A DNA stretch of 36,884 nucleotides, taken from positions 1-36,884 of the forward strand of contig CALIBQ010000014.1 in the NCBI GenBank assembly GCA_938049385.1. The letters are read 5' to 3'. The position numbers and the translations under genes were made by a program. The DNA comes from an uncultured Anaerolineae bacterium. GTDB lineage: Bacteria > Chloroflexota > Anaerolineae > JACIWP01. The notes beneath the pieces are model-generated. The model worked only from the letters and a program-made list of their open reading frames with translations, was not told where the DNA came from and searched no databases. Every line of letters begins with the position of its first letter. Position 1 is the first letter of the stretch. Positions 18,658-35,381 of this stretch are shown here, piece by piece.

Positions 18658-19452
18658 ATGCTGCGCACCCGCGTCCTCAGCGCCCTGGTCCTTCTGCCCA
18701 TCGTTGCAGTGCTTCTCTATCTGGGCGGGTGGTGGTTCGCCGGCGCGGTGCTGGTAGCGGCCGGCCTGGCCCTCCATGAGCTGTACGGCTTGCTCCGCCA
18801 GGCAGAACTGGCCCCGCAGGAAGCTATTGGACTGCTCCTCGCGGCCGCTCTGGTGCTCCCGCCCATCCTGCCGCAGGGCCGGCCCTGGCTGGAGCTGATC
18901 CTCACCCTCTGCACCGCCGGCGCGCTGGTGTGGCATATGCTTCAGCCCGGACGGCCCCGTCCTGGCGTGGATGCACTGGCCACCCTGGCCGGTGCGCTCT
19001 ACCTGGGCTGGATGGGCCGGCATTTCGTCGCCCTGCGCCTGGTGCCGCAGGGCCTGCAGTGGACGGCACTGGCCCTGCTTTCGACCTGGATCACCGACAG
19101 CGGCGCCTATTTCGTCGGCCGGCGCTGGGGCCGGCGGCCCCTAGCGCCCCGGCTTAGTCCGAAGAAAACATGGGAAGGGGCGGTCGGGGGATGGCTGACC
19201 GGCGCGGCGCTGACGCCGGTGGTTGCCTGGCTGTTGGGGCTGTCCCCCTGGCACGGGCTGGCACTGGGCGCCGTCATCGCCACGGTGGCTCCCTTCGGCG
19301 ATTTGGCGGAATCCATGTTCAAGCGTCAGGTCGGCGCCAAGGATTCCAGCAAGCTCATCCCCGGCCACGGCGGGATGCTCGATCGGATTGACAGTCTGCT
19401 GTTCGTGATCCCCAGCGCCTATTATTACCTGCTCATCGCCGGCGTCATCTAG
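18658..19452 (+). CDS. cdsA: Phosphatidate cytidylyltransferase
   Basis: A 264-residue multi-spanning membrane enzyme forming CDP-diacylglycerol for phospholipid synthesis. Hydrophobic segments cover most of the protein. The C-terminal CdsA signature is intact: ESMFKRQVGAKDSSKLIPGH followed by GGMLDRIDSLLF. ITDSGAYFVGRRWGRRPLAP and LSPKKTWEG are also typical. GGAG lies seven bases before the ATG. No dxr or rseP follows. Its TAG stop overlaps the TAG stop of the opposing MttB-family gene in a shared CTAG. Confidence 0.96.
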   Translation: MLRTRVLSALVLLPIVAVLLYLGGWWFAGAVLVAAGLALHELYGLLRQAELAPQEAIGLLLAAALVLPPILPQGRPWLELILTLCTAGALVWHMLQPGRPRPGVDALATLAGALYLGWMGRHFVALRLVPQGLQWTALALLSTWITDSGAYFVGRRWGRRPLAPRLSPKKTWEGAVGGWLTGAALTPVVAWLLGLSPWHGLALGAVIATVAPFGDLAESMFKRQVGAKDSSKLIPGHGGMLDRIDSLLFVIPSAYYYLLIAGVI

Positions 19453-20912
19453 TTCTTGGCTTCCCACGCTCTCGCGATGGCGTCCAGCTCGCGCACCGCT
19501 TCCGACGGCAGGGGCGCCGGCTGGTGGGTCTCCAGCAGGTTCCGCAGGCGGGCGTGCACGCGCGCGGCGAAATCCGGTTTGCCGGCCAGCGTCCAGGCCT
19601 GATAGCCGCTCCGGTCCAGCAGAGCCGGCCGCCAGAAGGTCCGGAAGTGCCGCAGGGTATGCTCCAGCGTGAGGAACTCGCCGCCTGGCCCGGCCTCATC
19701 TATCAGGTCCAGCGCCGCGTCCTGCTCCTCGATGGGCATCCCCTTCAATATGACGTCCAACATGCCCACGATTTCGTCCACCACCAAATACATCGCCGGC
19801 ATAATCACTTGCGCACTGCCAAACAGTCCGACATCGTGAATCAGGTCGGCCCCGCTCAGCGCGGCAAAGGCGCAGGACAGCGAGGCCTCCAGCACAGCCT
19901 GGCCGTCAAACGTGCAGGCATCCCCACAGCCGGCAGTGCCGAAATTGGGCAGTCCGAAGTGCGCCGCCATCTCCGCCATGCCGGCCAGGAGCAGGTGCAG
20001 TTCCGGCGCACCGTAGGAGAAAACCGTGCTGTGCATGTCCATGACCGAGGGCATGGCACCGAAAATGAAGGGGGCGCCGGGGTTCGCCAGTTGATGGATA
20101 ACCAGCCCAGAGAGCGATTCGGCGCAGGCTTGTGCCAGTGCGCCGGCCATATCGCACGGGGCAGTGGCGCCCATAGCCAGGTACGGGGTATATACCAGCG
20201 GTATCTCCTTCTCGGCACAGTAAAGCAGTTTCTCGATGGATTCATCGGGGTGGAGCAGGGGGGATATAGGCTCCGAGTAGTGGAGCAGGAAGGGCTGTTG
20301 GCGCAGTCGCTTTTCGCCGCCGGCGATGACTGCCGCCATCTTATGCACTTCCGCCAGCGAGGCGAGCGACAGGGTGATGACCAGCACCGGTTTGGTCGTG
20401 TGGAGGAGCGCTTGGCGGGCGGCGAAGCGGTCGGCCAGATGCGCTGGCCGGTCGGCGGCGAAGCCGGCGGACATCAGGAAGCTCAGGTGCGGCAGGGTAT
20501 CCACCAGCCGGGCATGCCGGGCGTCATCCGCCTCCTCCTGTGGGCGGTGTTCGCCGGTGAGCGGGTCCAGGAGCAGGGGCGCGTCCATGTTGGCGCCGAA
20601 GTACGTGCGCCGCTGTCCCAGCCGCATGGCCGGCCGGCCCAGCCGGTCGTAAATGACCAGTTGGCGGGGCGCGGAATTCAAGGCCTTCTGCACCAGCCAG
20701 GCCGGCAGGCGGACGCGGTAGCCGGGGGTGCCGGCGGGGGTGGAAGAGTGCTCCACCCGCGCGCCGGCGCCGGCCAGCATTTCAGCGGCGCCGGCATGGC
20801 TCAGGTGCACGCCGGTGCGCTCCAGGATTTCCAGCGCACCCCCGGCGATGCGCCGGCGTTGATACGGGGACAGCACTGAGAGGCGCGGCCTGAAAAGCGT
20901 TTCATTTTCCAC
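19449..20912 (-). CDS. MttB-family methyltransferase (non-pyrrolysine), copy 1
   Basis: A 487-residue member of the trimethylamine methyltransferase (MttB) superfamily. Such proteins move a methyl group from a methylated amine to a cob(I)alamin protein. It is collinear with the second copy: LEILERTGVHLSHAGAAEML, RRTYFGANMDAPLLLDPLTG, HTTKPVLV, LLHYSEPISPL, GATAPCDMAGALAQ, LANPGAPFIFGAMPSVMDM and NFGTAGCGDACTFDGQA. No in-frame TAG occurs inside; the TAG at the end is the normal stop, so pyrrolysine is not used. The start is GTG at 20912 with GAGGAG eight bases upstream. Glycine betaine, proline betaine and carnitine enzymes belong to this Pyl-less group; the substrate here is unknown. Confidence 0.9.
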   Translation of the reverse strand: MENETLFRPRLSVLSPYQRRRIAGGALEILERTGVHLSHAGAAEMLAGAGARVEHSSTPAGTPGYRVRLPAWLVQKALNSAPRQLVIYDRLGRPAMRLGQRRTYFGANMDAPLLLDPLTGEHRPQEEADDARHARLVDTLPHLSFLMSAGFAADRPAHLADRFAARQALLHTTKPVLVITLSLASLAEVHKMAAVIAGGEKRLRQQPFLLHYSEPISPLLHPDESIEKLLYCAEKEIPLVYTPYLAMGATAPCDMAGALAQACAESLSGLVIHQLANPGAPFIFGAMPSVMDMHSTVFSYGAPELHLLLAGMAEMAAHFGLPNFGTAGCGDACTFDGQAVLEASLSCAFAALSGADLIHDVGLFGSAQVIMPAMYLVVDEIVGMLDVILKGMPIEEQDAALDLIDEAGPGGEFLTLEHTLRHFRTFWRPALLDRSGYQAWTLAGKPDFAARVHARLRNLLETHQPAPLPSEAVRELDAIARAWEAKN

Positions 20913-20933
20913 GAAGCATGCTCCTCTGTGCTC

Positions 20934-21022
20934 GAGGGTGTTGAAAAGCTTGATAGTTGAAAGCCGGCCGTGTTTGCGAAGCTTCGCCTGGCGGCTGGAA
21001 GCCGCCGGCGAACATCCGACAA
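20934..21022. repeat. Palindromic REP-like repeat, copy B
   Basis: Begins GAGGGTGTTGAAAA (20934-20947), identical to the start of the copy at 36460. It contains the self-complementary GCGAAGCTTCGC (20976-20987) and the hairpin GGCGGCT/AGCCGCC (20990-20996, 21000-21006). Its last 33 bases match 36494-36526 at 31 positions. It occupies the spacer between the racemase-like gene and MttB copy 1. Confidence 0.65.
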
Positions 21023-21082
21023 GCGCTGATGACCTCCTGGGCCAAGTCGAGAGCGGCCAAGAAGGTACCGAAGCCCCAGCCC

Positions 21083-21116
21083 CTATCCCCTTCCCCGTAC
21101 ACGGGGAAGGGGATAG
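21083..21116 (-). terminator. Long perfect hairpin after the racemase-like gene
   Basis: Sixteen-base arms (21083-21098 and 21101-21116) separated by two bases, 12 bases beyond the stop codon of the racemase-like gene. There is no clear U-run on the minus strand, so it may be a terminator, a processing stem or another dispersed repeat. It may reduce expression of MttB copy 1 relative to copy 2. Confidence 0.5.
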
Positions 21117-21128
21117 AATGTTGCGGCT

Positions 21129-21896
21129 TCAGCAGATACCCTGGTACGGCTTCTGCACGACGGCCGTGTACACCCAGCGGATGAGGGTGATGAAGTCAAA
21201 GACCGGCAGTTCCACCGCCGCCTGCACCGCCGCGGCGAAAGGCGGCAGATCACTGCATTCCAGCAGGATGGCGCCGACCTCCGGGTTTTCCCGCACCAAT
21301 TTCTGCGCGCTGGCGACGACCTCCTGCTCCAGGCGGTCGTAGTCGAACTCCCCCTTGCTGAAGAGGATTTTGCCGAACTCCGGCTGGTCCTCCAGTCCGA
21401 TGACGGCGATGGGAATATCCGGGGTGACGCCGCAGGCCTCCAGGGTTTGCCGGCGCAGGAAGCGGGAGTCGGCGCACATGATGCCGACCTTCTGCCCGGG
21501 TTTCAGGGCGCGGTGGATGATCGGCACTTGCAGGAGGCTGGAGAGGAACACCGGCACATCCAGCGCCGCGGCGACCTGCGGCTGGAAGTTGCCGAAGTAG
21601 CCGCAGGCGCCCACGATGGCGCGCACGCCTTCTTGCTCCAGCTCGCGGCCGGCGGCGATGATGTCATCCAGCAGGGTGGGGTCGCCGGCCAGCATGCGCT
21701 CCTGGGTCGCCCCTTTCACCAGCTTCAGGCGCACCGGGAAGTCATAGGTGCTGGCATTGACCACATTGCCAGGAATCAAGGGGTACCAGACCTCCAGGTG
21801 CAGGATGCCGATGGGATGGCCGGCGATATACTGCCCCGGCTTGATGCGGAAGACACGCCCATGTACGTCTCCCTTGCCCAGATAAGCGTATGTCAT
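21129..21896 (-). CDS. Asp/Glu racemase superfamily protein
   Basis: A 255-residue protein with the two-lobed layout of the aspartate/glutamate/hydantoin racemase superfamily. Two cysteines in the expected positions are Cys98 (VGACGYFGNF) and Cys214 (LLECSDLPPF), the acid-base pair of cofactor-independent racemases, maleate isomerases and related enzymes. The start at 21896 has GGGAGGGAAGCC directly before it. It lies between two MttB-family genes, 23 bases after copy 2, so it probably acts on the same compound or its product, for example interconverting enantiomers. That role is inference; decarboxylase or isomerase chemistry is also possible. Confidence 0.82.
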   Translation of the reverse strand: MTYAYLGKGDVHGRVFRIKPGQYIAGHPIGILHLEVWYPLIPGNVVNASTYDFPVRLKLVKGATQERMLAGDPTLLDDIIAAGRELEQEGVRAIVGACGYFGNFQPQVAAALDVPVFLSSLLQVPIIHRALKPGQKVGIMCADSRFLRRQTLEACGVTPDIPIAVIGLEDQPEFGKILFSKGEFDYDRLEQEVVASAQKLVRENPEVGAILLECSDLPPFAAAVQAAVELPVFDFITLIRWVYTAVVQKPYQGIC

Positions 21897-21919
21897 GGCT
21901 TCCCTCCCTTGTGAGCGGC

Positions 21920-23350
21920 TCAGCCGATAACCGCTCGCATGCGCTCGACCGTCTCTTTCGGAAGAGGTTCGGGTTGATGGGATGCCAGGATATCGCGCAC
22001 CCGCTGATTGAGCCGGCGGTACATGTCCTGGCCCCCGCGCGCCTGCCAATCCTCATAGGTGTAGCGGTCCGACAGGCTCGGGAACCAGAAGTCGCGGAAG
22101 TGGGAGACGGTCGAGGGATGCGCGAGGAAATTGCCGCCTGGACCGACCTCATGCAGGATGCCGACGCTCAGGGTTTCATCATTCACCTGGATGCCCTTGA
22201 TGAGATGGTCCGCCAGGGCGACCAGCTCATCGGTCAGCACGATCATCTCCAAAGAGACGGTCAGTCCGCTTTCCATGTAGCCCATGTCGTGAATCAGGTT
22301 GGCGCCGGAGAGCTTGGCCATGATGACGGAGAGCATGGCCTCGGCGGCGGCCTGCTCGTCCATGACCTTGGCATCGGAACAGCCGGCATAGCCCCAGGTG
22401 GGCAGGCCGTAGTAGCGGCCCAGCTCGGCTACGGCCGCCTTGGTGAGCTGGAACTCCGGCGAGGCGTAGCAGATCTGCATGGACTTCATGTCCATATGGT
22501 GCAGGCCGGCGCCGTAGACGAAGGGAGCGCCAGGGTTCTTGAGCTGGTGCACCACTAGGGCGCTGAGGATTTCGGCGTTGGACATGACCAGGCCGCCGGC
22601 CATATGGATGGGGGCGGTGGCACCCATCATCGGGCCGGGGGAGTGCACCACCGGTGTGCTCGTCTCGGCCATCAGCAGGAGCTTGTCAATGGCGGTCTCG
22701 CTCTGCTGGAGCGGGGAACTTGGCTCGGAATAGAGCAGGATGAGCGGGCATTCCCGAAGCCGCTCCTTGCCGCCCACGACGATGGAGGCCATTTCAATGA
22801 TGTTGGCGGCGTCGGCGTAGTCATTGCAGACGAAGACGATGGGTTTGGTGGTATGCTGGAGCAGGTGCAGGTACTGCCATTGATAGAGGGAGATTCCCTC
22901 GGGCACATCGTTGGGGATGCCGTTGGACATCTGGAAATGGATGTTGGGCAGGGCATCGCACAGGCGGTAGGAATCGCAGATGTCCTTGGTGGTCCACGGC
23001 CGGCGTTCGCCGGTGACGGGGTCCAGCAGGCGCAGGGTGTCGGAGCCGGTGCCGAAATAGGTGCGCCGGCCCTCCAACAGCATGGCCGGCTCACCGTGCC
23101 GGTCGCACATCACGATGCGGCGCGGCGCGGAGGCCAGGGCGCTCTCCACCAAGGAAGCAGGGAACTTCACCAGATTGCCGTCCACGAAGGCGCCGGCGCG
23201 GCGCAGGAGCTCCAGCGCGCCCTGATGATGGAAGCGCACGCCGGTACGGCGCAAGACCTCCAGCGTGGCAAGATGAATTTCCTCGAGCTGGCTTTCGGAC
23301 AGCAGGGCGAACTGTGGGGTGGCGTACGGCGCGTAACTGCTTCGGTTCAT
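21920..23350 (-). CDS. MttB-family methyltransferase (non-pyrrolysine), copy 2
   Basis: A 476-residue MttB superfamily protein, collinear with the gene at 19449-20912 but well diverged. Matching blocks are LEVLRRTGVRFHHQGALELL, GRRTYFGTGSDTLRLLDPVT, HTTKPIVFVCND, LILLYSEPSSPLQ, GATAPIHMAGGLVM, LKNPGAPFVYGAGLHHMDMK and TWGYAGCSDAKVMDEQAA. No internal stop is read through. AAAGGAG precedes the ATG at 23350. It is the first enzyme gene after the GntR regulator (28-base gap). No corrinoid-binding protein or corrinoid:folate methyltransferase lies in the window, so the methyl acceptor must be encoded elsewhere or the enzyme has another mode of action. Confidence 0.9.
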   Translation of the reverse strand: MNRSSYAPYATPQFALLSESQLEEIHLATLEVLRRTGVRFHHQGALELLRRAGAFVDGNLVKFPASLVESALASAPRRIVMCDRHGEPAMLLEGRRTYFGTGSDTLRLLDPVTGERRPWTTKDICDSYRLCDALPNIHFQMSNGIPNDVPEGISLYQWQYLHLLQHTTKPIVFVCNDYADAANIIEMASIVVGGKERLRECPLILLYSEPSSPLQQSETAIDKLLLMAETSTPVVHSPGPMMGATAPIHMAGGLVMSNAEILSALVVHQLKNPGAPFVYGAGLHHMDMKSMQICYASPEFQLTKAAVAELGRYYGLPTWGYAGCSDAKVMDEQAAAEAMLSVIMAKLSGANLIHDMGYMESGLTVSLEMIVLTDELVALADHLIKGIQVNDETLSVGILHEVGPGGNFLAHPSTVSHFRDFWFPSLSDRYTYEDWQARGGQDMYRRLNQRVRDILASHQPEPLPKETVERMRAVIG

Positions 23351-23378
23351 GTCTCTCTCCTTTCACGATACGATGTGT

Positions 23379-24074
23379 TTATTCCCTGGAGCCGGCGATG
23401 AGCTGTCCCAGGTACGCCATATGGCGTTCGGCGGCGCGGCGGGCGGCTTCCGGATCGCCGGCTTTGATGGCGTTCAATATCTCTCGCTGAAGCTGAATAG
23501 AATGCTCCTTCACCTGGGGCAGGGCCACCAGGTACTGAGTGGTTTCGGCCAGCAGTTCGCGGGAAACCTGGTAGAAGCGTTCGAGCAGGCGGTTGCGGGC
23601 GGCGCGGGCGACGGCCAGGTGGAACTCCAGGTCAGCGGCGGCGAAGGCCTGGTCATCATGCAGGTTCTCTTCCATACGCTGGAGGGCAGACTCGATGCCG
23701 GCGATGTCCTCGGCGGTGGCGCGCTGGGCGGCCATGACACTCAGCCCGACTTCGATCAACTGCCGCGCCTCGCAGAGCTGGATGGCGTCCAGCTCCTGGA
23801 GCCGGCTTCGCACCAGGGTGGAAGTGTCCAGGATGGCCGGCGCGTCCGGGCTGACCTGGGTGCCTCTGCCCGGCTGGGGGATGAGCAGGCCGACGAGCGC
23901 CAGGGCCTTAATGGCCTCGCGCACGGTAGAGAGGCCGACGCCGAAGCGCTGGGCCAACTCCGGTTGGGGAGGGAGCCAGCCGCCGGGTTCGACCTCGCCG
24001 GCGGCGATCATGCGTTGAAGCTCGCGAATGACGCCGTCGGTCAGGGTGTCGCGTGTCAGTGGTGCGATCGGCAT
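23379..24074 (-). CDS. GntR-family (FadR/FCD type) transcriptional regulator
   Basis: A 231-residue regulator. The winged helix-turn-helix is at about 8-75 (LQRMIAAGEVEPGGWLPPQP, LAQRFGVGLSTVREAIKAL, GLLIPQPGRGTQV). An all-helical FCD ligand domain follows, with EARQLIEVGLSVMAAQRAT, DLEFHLAVARAARN and RRAAERHMAYLG; the Asp/His residues fit the metal-ligand site of FCD proteins. The ATG at 24074 has AGGAG six bases before it. First gene of the MttB operon. The perfect palindrome at 24099-24121 in its leader makes autoregulation likely, and the MttB substrate or a product is the natural inducer candidate. Confidence 0.92.
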   Translation of the reverse strand: MPIAPLTRDTLTDGVIRELQRMIAAGEVEPGGWLPPQPELAQRFGVGLSTVREAIKALALVGLLIPQPGRGTQVSPDAPAILDTSTLVRSRLQELDAIQLCEARQLIEVGLSVMAAQRATAEDIAGIESALQRMEENLHDDQAFAAADLEFHLAVARAARNRLLERFYQVSRELLAETTQYLVALPQVKEHSIQLQREILNAIKAGDPEAARRAAERHMAYLGQLIAGSRE

Positions 24075-24098
24075 GGTATGCTCCTGAAAAAGCAGAAC

Positions 24099-24121
24099 AT
24101 CATAACATCTGATGTTATGAT
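24099..24121 (-). promoter_or_regulatory. Perfect palindromic operator before the GntR gene
   Basis: Arms ATCATAACATC (24099-24109) and GATGTTATGAT (24111-24121) surround one central T. It lies just downstream of the -10 and start site, 24 bases before the ATG, where bound repressor would block transcription. An AT-rich 23-base dyad stands out in this GC-rich DNA. Confidence 0.75.
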
Positions 24122-24132
24122 ATTTCAGGCAC

Positions 24133-24160
24133 ATTATACAGGGAATGCGGTAGATGTCAA
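24133..24160 (-). promoter_or_regulatory. Consensus promoter of the GntR-MttB operon
   Basis: TTGACA (24160-24155) and TATAAT (24138-24133), both exact, with a 16-base spacer. A transcript would start near 24126, at the edge of the operator palindrome. Confidence 0.8.
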
Positions 24161-33709: not shown

Positions 33710-34825
33710 TCACATCCGCAGGCGGGTTCCTTCGGGGTCGTAGAGCGGCCGGCGTGCCACGCGCGCCGGGTGATGCCCGCCGGCGCTGTCCCGCACGCGC
33801 ACCGCATTGCCTTCAACGGCATGTTCCAGCGGCAGGTATCCAAAGGCCAGCGGATGACCCACGCTGTGGCCGAAGGCGGCGCTGGTAACCTTGCCGACCT
33901 CTCTGTCATCCACCAGCAGAGCATCGCCGCCGGCCGGCACGTATTCATCTTCCAACTGCAGGAGGGTCAGTTTTTCGGAGAAGCCGGCGGCTTTGCGGCG
34001 GAGCAGGGATTCCCGACCGATGAAGTCCCCCTTGTCCAGCTTCACGGTCCATCCCAGGCCGACCTCGTAAGGCGTGCGGCCGCCGGCGAAGTCCAACCGC
34101 ATGATGTAGCCCTTTTCCAGCCGCAGGCTGAAGGCCGCCGCCATGCCGCAGAGCGCCATGTCGTATGGTTTGCCGGCGGCGGTGAGGGTCTCCCAGAAGT
34201 CATGGGCGTGTTCCGCCGGCACCAGCACCTCATATCCCAGCTCGCCGGTGTAGCCGGTGCGGGAGATGTAAGCGCGGATGCCGGCCACATGCGCCGGCAT
34301 ACCCCACATATAACCCAGTGTATCAAAGGGTTCCTCGGTGATGGATCCGAGAATCTGACGGGAGAGGGGGCCTTGTACGGCCAGCAGGGCACTGCCCGAG
34401 GAAACATCGGTGACCGCGACGTTTAGGCCCGCGCTCCAGCGCAGGAGCCACTCGTATTCGGGCCGGGCGTTGGCCGCGTTACTTCCCCAGGCGGTCATGA
34501 GCATGTAATGCGATTCGCCCAGACGGTAGACAGTAATATCGGAGAAGATACTGCCGTCTTCCAACAGCATTGTGGTGTAGAGGACCTTGTTGACCGGCAT
34601 GCCGGCGGCGTCATTGACGATGACCTTCTGCACCAGCCGCAGTGCGTCAGGGCCTTGGACCTCGATCTCGCCGGTGGTGGACCAATCGAAAATGCCGGCG
34701 CGCTGACGCACCGCCAGATGCTCCTCACGGGGGCTGGTGAAGATGTTCGGAACCTCCCATCCCTGCACCACAGCCCACTGCGGGCCGGCCTGCTGAATGT
34801 CGCAGTAGAAGGGCGAGCGCTTCAT
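33710..34825 (-). CDS. GcvT-like aminomethyltransferase family protein
   Basis: A 371-residue folate-dependent aminomethyltransferase homologue. The N-terminal part has LAVRQRAGIFDWSTTGEIEV and LVQKVIVNDAAGMPVNKVLY, followed by MLLEDGSIFSDITVYRL, whose Asp corresponds to the catalytic acid of GcvT. RTGYTGELGYEVLVPAEHAH and GLGWTVKLDKGDFIGRESLL follow, and the C-terminal barrel ends with ARVARRPLYDPEGTRLRM. The ATG at 34825 has AGAGGAGG before it. No gcvH or gcvP is adjacent, so it may be a demethylase (for example of dimethylglycine or sarcosine-type compounds) rather than the glycine cleavage T protein. It follows the XRE-cupin gene by 16 bases. Confidence 0.88.
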   Translation of the reverse strand: MKRSPFYCDIQQAGPQWAVVQGWEVPNIFTSPREEHLAVRQRAGIFDWSTTGEIEVQGPDALRLVQKVIVNDAAGMPVNKVLYTTMLLEDGSIFSDITVYRLGESHYMLMTAWGSNAANARPEYEWLLRWSAGLNVAVTDVSSGSALLAVQGPLSRQILGSITEEPFDTLGYMWGMPAHVAGIRAYISRTGYTGELGYEVLVPAEHAHDFWETLTAAGKPYDMALCGMAAAFSLRLEKGYIMRLDFAGGRTPYEVGLGWTVKLDKGDFIGRESLLRRKAAGFSEKLTLLQLEDEYVPAGGDALLVDDREVGKVTSAAFGHSVGHPLAFGYLPLEHAVEGNAVRVRDSAGGHHPARVARRPLYDPEGTRLRM

Positions 34826-34841
34826 GGAGGGGCCTCCTCTG

Positions 34842-35381
34842 CTAGAAGATGGCCGGCGTGATGGCGGAGATGAACACCGCCTCCTCATCCCCCAACGCAC
34901 AGATGCTTTGCAGTTGGGAACCGTCGAAGTAAATGCTGTCCCCCGGCTCCAAATCGTACGCGTTGTCCGCCAGCTCCACCCGGATGCGCCCCTCCAGCAC
35001 CAGCAGGCATTCTTCCGTGCTGTGGCTCATCGGATGGGCGATATTGCCCTGCGATGGATGGATGCGGCCGATAAACATTTCCAGTTTATGGTTGAGGTCC
35101 GGGGTGAGCAGTTCGTAGGTGACCTGGGAGCGCGGCAGGGTGAGCCTTTTCCGCTCCTGCCGGCGCACCACCGGACGGTGCTCCTGTTCGTCCGACAGGA
35201 AATAGAAGACGGGCACCTCCAGCGCCTCTGCGATGCGGCGTAGGGACTTGATGGATGGGTCGGCCAGCTCGCGCTCGATCTGGCTCAGGAAGCTGGCCGT
35301 GACGCCAGCTTTCTCCGCGACCTCGCGCAGGCTCATACGCAGTTCGGTGCGTCTTTTCCGGATTCGTTCTCCGATCACCAT
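34842..35381 (-). CDS. XRE-family regulator with C-terminal cupin
   Basis: A 179-residue regulator with an N-terminal helix-turn-helix (5-61: RIRKRRTELRMSLREVAEKA, GVTASFLSQIERELADPS). A C-terminal cupin (about 108-175) contains HSTEECLLVLEGRIRVELAD and YDLEPGDSIYF. This is the architecture of PuuR-like sensors of amines or amino-acid derivatives. AGAGGA lies five bases before the ATG at 35381. Its place directly before a GcvT-like gene suggests that it controls use of a methylated amine or amino acid, which is inference. Confidence 0.92.
   Translation of the reverse strand: MVIGERIRKRRTELRMSLREVAEKAGVTASFLSQIERELADPSIKSLRRIAEALEVPVFYFLSDEQEHRPVVRRQERKRLTLPRSQVTYELLTPDLNHKLEMFIGRIHPSQGNIAHPMSHSTEECLLVLEGRIRVELADNAYDLEPGDSIYFDGSQLQSICALGDEEAVFISAITPAIF

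Follow-up and report, generated by a model that had tools for sequence, protein, structure and literature searches.

The window examined here is the whole of contig C14, 36,884 bases from an uncultured Anaerolineae bacterium whose genome comprises 3.37 Mb in 85 contigs. It carries one minus-strand operon, in which a GntR/FCD regulator gene is followed by a methyltransferase gene of the MttB superfamily (MttB-A), a gene for an Asp/Glu-racemase-like protein of the PRK07475 type and a second MttB gene (MttB-B). The association between MttB and a racemase is real and conserved, and it is repeated with a second racemase that is not homologous to the first. On balance, we favor the reading that this operon is autoregulated and serves to remove N-methyl groups anaerobically, with the help of a corrinoid protein, from a chiral methylated amino acid, presumably an amino-acid betaine.

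Recurrence of the MttB-racemase association

The order of the four genes is identical in two genomes of the same genus, and the arrangement is therefore not due to chance. The first-pass annotation had described two diverged MttB homologues, both lacking pyrrolysine (Pyl), that bracket an Asp/Glu-racemase-like enzyme under a GntR/FCD regulator; the Pfam and NCBIfam matches, together with the gene order, agree with this description. The locus also lacks a local corrinoid protein, as had been stated, with no such gene found within it.

Racemase matches are present in 28 of 396 genomes of the class. An MttB gene lies at most two genes away at 16 of the 20 racemase loci examined in the class and at most four genes away at 17, with a chance expectation of about 1-3% per locus given 10-30 MttBs per genome; two of the three loci that lack MttB within four genes are cut or fragmentary. 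The genome of the window itself encodes 21 MttBs, and both its single PRK07475 racemase and its single proline racemase (PF05544) lie in MttB-MttB operons. The second of these modules, on contig C10, consists of GntR, MttB, MttB and a proline racemase with both catalytic Cys residues, which are also retained in the PF05544 copies beside MttB where these are long enough to judge. Neither racemase type is near any of 17 other MttBs of this genome (0/17), as against two of two members of the clade of MttB-B (Fisher p = 0.006). A Cys or Thr at the second catalytic position separates racemase-type PF05544 proteins from trans-3-hydroxyproline dehydratase, and the latter function is unlikely for the C10 protein, which has the second catalytic Cys.

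In a tree of 121 MttB sequences, the 21-member clade of MttB-B includes the MttBs of Desulfosarcinaceae locus L113 and Synergistales locus L100, and it covers Chloroflexota, Desulfobacterota and Synergistota. Its members are accompanied by the PRK07475 racemase, the non-homologous proline racemase, OCD, octopine dehydrogenase, DAO and a BCCT betaine transporter. Loci retrieved by MttB similarity alone offer a view without bias towards racemases. Among them, an A-B pair of MttBs is followed by a PF05544 proline racemase in a genome of another family (G359, L239), a B-clade MttB is accompanied by a proline racemase and a DAO oxidase (G059, L244), and OCD genes adjoin a B-clade MttB in G115 (L243) and at another locus of G359 (L249). 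Two of the five Desulfobacterota orthologs retrieved in this way (L268 and L272) share a gene run with the PRK07475 racemase, which lies three genes away from the B-clade MttB, and with octopine dehydrogenase and PanB-like genes, and two others (L270 and L271) are accompanied by octopine dehydrogenase, PanB-like, BCCT betaine transporter and MttC genes. The A-B pair therefore recurs in three distant lineages.

It is very improbable that the substrates of the two MttBs are unrelated achiral quaternary amines, with the racemase beside them by chance or through loose co-regulation. Any gene may adjoin an MttB in a genome with 21 of them in many contexts; however, other families and phyla show the same association, a second type of racemase takes part in it as well, and in 16 of 20 cases the racemase locus is no more than two genes from an MttB. 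Instead of homologues that never co-occur with the racemase, which the first-pass annotation had named as grounds for refutation, the opposite was found.

The survey outside Chloroflexota covered the 80 best GTDB loci for the racemase, and L113 and L100 are among those with an MttB directly beside it, while within Chloroflexota an MttB adjoins the racemase in Dehalococcoidales (L103). A racemase exclusive to MttB is ruled out, since outside Chloroflexota the close PRK07475 relatives mostly have no MttB beside them. As a separate observation, the PRK07475 racemases outside Chloroflexota (L094-L172) often stand beside a conserved set of octopine-dehydrogenase-like, TRAP or amino-acid ABC transporter and PanB-like genes. 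Moreover, large MttB islands in Anaerolineae (L078-L087, and contigs C35 = L029 and C46 = L022 of the same genome as the window) contain Opp-type ABC transporters, Cys/Met-metabolism pyridoxal-phosphate (PLP) enzymes, aminotransferases, a PanB-like hydroxymethyltransferase and methylaspartate ammonia-lyase, and many hold a 38%-identical racemase. It might be speculated that these islands serve the catabolism of the trimethylhomoserine head group of betaine lipids.

The operon proteins and the corrinoid partner

The racemase-like protein belongs to the NCBIfam subfamily PRK07475 (304 bits against a cut-off of 231), which is annotated as "hypothetical protein", and it passes the Pfam family PF01177 Asp_Glu_race (34.6 bits against 31). 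Its start is the ATG at 21896, 23 nt past MttB-A, and a TTG open reading frame reaching 22049 is an extension only. A sequence search against the PDB gave no match for it. An AlphaFold model based on 29 sequences has a mean pLDDT of 89, and Foldseek places glutamate (MurI), aspartate and hydantoin racemases at the top of its PDB matches, at TM-scores of about 0.5-0.6, arylmalonate decarboxylase also being among the structural matches. Cys98 and Cys214, the expected catalytic base pair, are invariant in 29 of 29 homologues. Because both Cys residues are invariant and the fold is that of racemases, sequence and model support a cofactor-free two-Cys racemase or epimerase of the Asp/Glu/hydantoin-racemase fold.

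It is quite unlikely that the protein is another enzyme of this fold, such as an isomerase, a decarboxylase or a ring-opening enzyme, which prepares or degrades the MttB substrate. Although the structural match to arylmalonate decarboxylase and the "hypothetical protein" annotation would suit such an enzyme, arylmalonate decarboxylase has a single active-site Cys, whereas both are invariant here, and a proline-racemase-family gene occupies the place of PRK07475 in sister modules. A further argument for such a substrate-preparing enzyme is the role of MthK for MthB, in which MttB genes have recruited a substrate-preparing enzyme (PMC12155760). Rhizobial relatives of the racemase adjoin L-pipecolate-oxidase-like, formyl-tetrahydrofolate deformylase (PurU) and DMGDH/GcvT-like genes, a context of oxidative N-demethylation that points in the same direction as the demethylation reading.

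MttB-A and MttB-B, which are 44% identical to each other, match PF06253 (MTTB) over their full length (E = 2.4e-100 and 4.4e-81), and their scores for the NCBIfam pyrrolysine-MttB equivalog (442 and 333) are both under its cut-off of 525. Neither has an in-frame stop, and both have Cys and His at the positions of Pyl334 and Tyr364 of Methanosarcina MttB, respectively (numbering from PMC9842639). By these sequence features both belong to the Pyl-less methyltransferases of the MttB superfamily, with a predicted methyl transfer to a Co(I)-corrinoid protein. Their best solved relative is MtgB (PDB 2QNE and 9YCE; E = 1e-73 and 3e-53), and orthologs of MttB-A with 63-71% identity are found in about ten other genera.

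A genome search for MttC-type and activase or methyltransferase genes, which the first-pass annotation had proposed, identified about eight stand-alone MttC-type B12-binding proteins, among them those of contigs C60, C17, C33 and C1, two RACo activators, one of them beside acs-like (CODH/acetyl-CoA synthase) genes, and four PF00809 proteins. Candidates for the corrinoid protein, the reductive activase and the tetrahydrofolate methyltransferase are thus all encoded elsewhere in the genome, and their pairing with the MttBs of the operon is putative. In Eubacterium limosum, MtpB, MtcB and MtyB share one MtqC that is encoded away from the MttB genes (PMC8604678). Because of this precedent and the MttC-type and RACo genes in trans, the absence of a local corrinoid protein is ordinary and not, as had been thought, unusual. 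The same two points rule out the suggestion that the racemase replaces the corrinoid protein. As a side observation, one of the 21 MttB genes (C24, 28757-30171) falls into two pieces in different frames, the shorter of which contains three stops, and is probably a pseudogene or the result of a sequencing error.

Possible substrate and proposed role of the racemase

The strongest argument for the demethylation of a chiral substrate is that two unrelated racemase families accompany one MttB clade. The first-pass suggestion of a chiral methylated amine fits this recurrence with a non-homologous racemase. In the proposed sequence of events, an effector would free GntR from its operator, and MttB-A and MttB-B would then demethylate the substrate, in its quaternary or partly demethylated form, with the corrinoid protein encoded elsewhere as methyl acceptor. 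A methyltransferase would carry the methyl groups on to tetrahydrofolate and into the Wood-Ljungdahl pathway. Inversion of the alpha carbon by the cofactor-free racemase would make both enantiomers usable or provide the diastereomer required by the next enzyme. The two MttBs may act on two enantiomers or in two successive demethylations, and the substrate of the racemase may be either the betaine or its product after demethylation.

Because proline racemase, OCD and DAO genes are found as neighbors, we lean towards proline-type compounds, although the octopine dehydrogenase and PanB neighbors seen elsewhere do not require such a substrate; stachydrine, hydroxyproline betaines or their N-methyl products are the best single guess, itself still rather unlikely. 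The only proline-racemase gene of the genome appears to be divided, with one part at the start of C10 and the other at the end of C23. Assuming that these two contigs join, the genes past the split, on C23, encode a binding protein of the oligopeptide type, an aminotransferase and a DAO/2Fe-2S/FAD set that resembles the subunits of sarcosine oxidase.

This split proline racemase with the amino-acid dehydrogenase set behind it also speaks for an alternative, namely that demethylation comes first and only its product, the free or N-monomethyl amino acid, is a substrate of the racemase, which then supplies a D- or L-specific oxidase or aminotransferase, and that the MttBs are not limited in their stereochemistry. 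The Synergistaceae racemase at L104, which is accompanied by a sarcosine-oxidase-like set and a proline-racemase homologue, and the aminotransferases near many racemases are in keeping with it as well. However, the operon in the window has no downstream amino-acid enzyme, and the position of the racemase between two MttB genes weakly suggests action at the methylated stage. This alternative is considered unlikely.

Several observations weigh against the demethylation of a chiral betaine as the function of the operon. There is no transporter gene inside the operon. Outside Chloroflexota, most racemases at the 80 best GTDB loci adjoin transporters and not MttB, and at L269, in Desulfobacterota, orthologs of A and B lie close together with no racemase at all. 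Most MttB-A orthologs are part of islands that also encode methylaspartate ammonia-lyase and PLP enzymes, and a PRK07475 racemase usually does not adjoin them. As for the proteins, MtgB, the nearest characterized reference, is distant from both MttBs in the tree, and PRK07475 has no characterized member in the libraries used. Decarboxylases and isomerases share the fold family of the racemase.

As a broader and tentative proposal, the cross-phylum MttB clade may be dedicated to chiral amino-acid betaines and may have repeatedly recruited racemases that are not homologous to each other (PRK07475 or PF05544), allowing both mirror images to enter corrinoid-dependent methylotrophy. This would be an anaerobic counterpart of the aerobic pathways with a hydroxyproline-betaine epimerase, and PRK07475 would be a new racemase for N-methylated amino acids. 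If true, stereochemistry would be added to anaerobic quaternary-amine use, and the widespread PRK07475 family, which also occurs near oxidative N-demethylation genes in rhizobia, would gain a role. The MttB superfamily is very large, and by 2025 the physiological substrate had been identified for six members only (PMC12155760). Where a clade has a conserved helper gene, the substrate of its MttBs is narrowed to a short testable list.

Control region and comparison with known systems

Table 1. Genes and candidate control elements of the operon, with positions in the window.
Feature	Position	Strand	Remarks
-35 hexamer TTGACA (6/6)	24155-24160	-	16-nt spacer to -10
-10 hexamer TATAAT (6/6)	24133-24138	-	perfect sigma-70-like promoter
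Operator-like palindrome AACATCATAACATC-t-GATGTTATGATATT	24096-24124	.	arms 24096-24109 / 24111-24124, directly downstream of -10
GntR/FCD regulator	23379-24074	-	Pfam GntR 9.5e-16, FCD 2.2e-25
MttB-A, Pyl-less MttB-superfamily methyltransferase	21920-23350	-	Pfam MTTB; Cys at Pyl334, His at Tyr364 position
PRK07475-type racemase	21129-21896	-	Pfam Asp_Glu_race 2.2e-8; NCBIfam; catalytic Cys98 + Cys214
Perfect 16-bp hairpin, no T-run	21083-21116	.	inside 216-nt racemase/MttB-B spacer
MttB-B, Pyl-less MttB of racemase-associated clade	19449-20912	-	Pfam MTTB; 21-member clade, support 0.991

Three promoter-like sites were found in the region, against 0.2 expected in shuffles, and the perfect promoter matches the end of the unit in the first-pass annotation (24160). 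The arms of the palindrome, 14 bp each, are 93% complementary, and two genomes of the same genus have its core in front of their gntR ortholog. GntR genes that repress themselves are usually arranged in this way, with a palindrome at the promoter; autoregulation is therefore predicted, with the palindrome as the probable GntR/FCD binding site. The GntR of the window is 53% identical to that of the module on C10 and about 40% identical to those adjoining two other B-clade MttBs. The spacer between the racemase and MttB-B (20912-21129) exceeds that of same-genus genomes by about 180 nt, and because it measures only 32 nt in the sister genome, the hairpin-bearing sequence looks like a local insertion. 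No further copies of the hairpin were detected in the loci of the same genome that were examined, and no known RNA family was found across the operon. Elsewhere in the window (33710-35381), a GcvT-like aminomethyltransferase-type gene, read by eye, adjoins an XRE-type regulator gene and is possibly part of another one-carbon-related unit.

Subscription literature aside, a literature search revealed nothing that links MttB with a racemase of either the PRK07475 or the PF05544 type, and a search on hydroxyproline betaine epimerase returned nothing relevant. A racemase as a helper of MttB thus has no precedent in the literature searched, whereas MttB helper enzymes as such are known, with MthK as the example. 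The MtpB-MtqC-MtqA system of E. limosum, like those of MtcB and MtyB, resembles the present case in that a Pyl-less MttB demethylates a chiral carboxylated quaternary amine while the corrinoid protein and the tetrahydrofolate methyltransferase are encoded away from it (PMC8604678), but no racemase has been described for MtpB and there is one MttB per substrate. MtgB, a glycine betaine methyltransferase, differs in its achiral substrate, in having Leu and not Cys at the Pyl334 position and in its distance in the tree. The proline racemase/4-hydroxyproline epimerase-type protein on C10 shares with the window the GntR-MttB-MttB operon and a two-Cys inversion of the alpha carbon; however, it belongs to an unrelated family, and its gene follows the second MttB instead of standing between the two. 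In the choline system of E. limosum, MthB-MthK, the MttB gene is likewise co-localized with a non-corrinoid enzyme that renders the substrate acceptable (PMC12155760), but the helper there is a choline kinase and not a racemase, and MthC and MthA are encoded in the same cluster.

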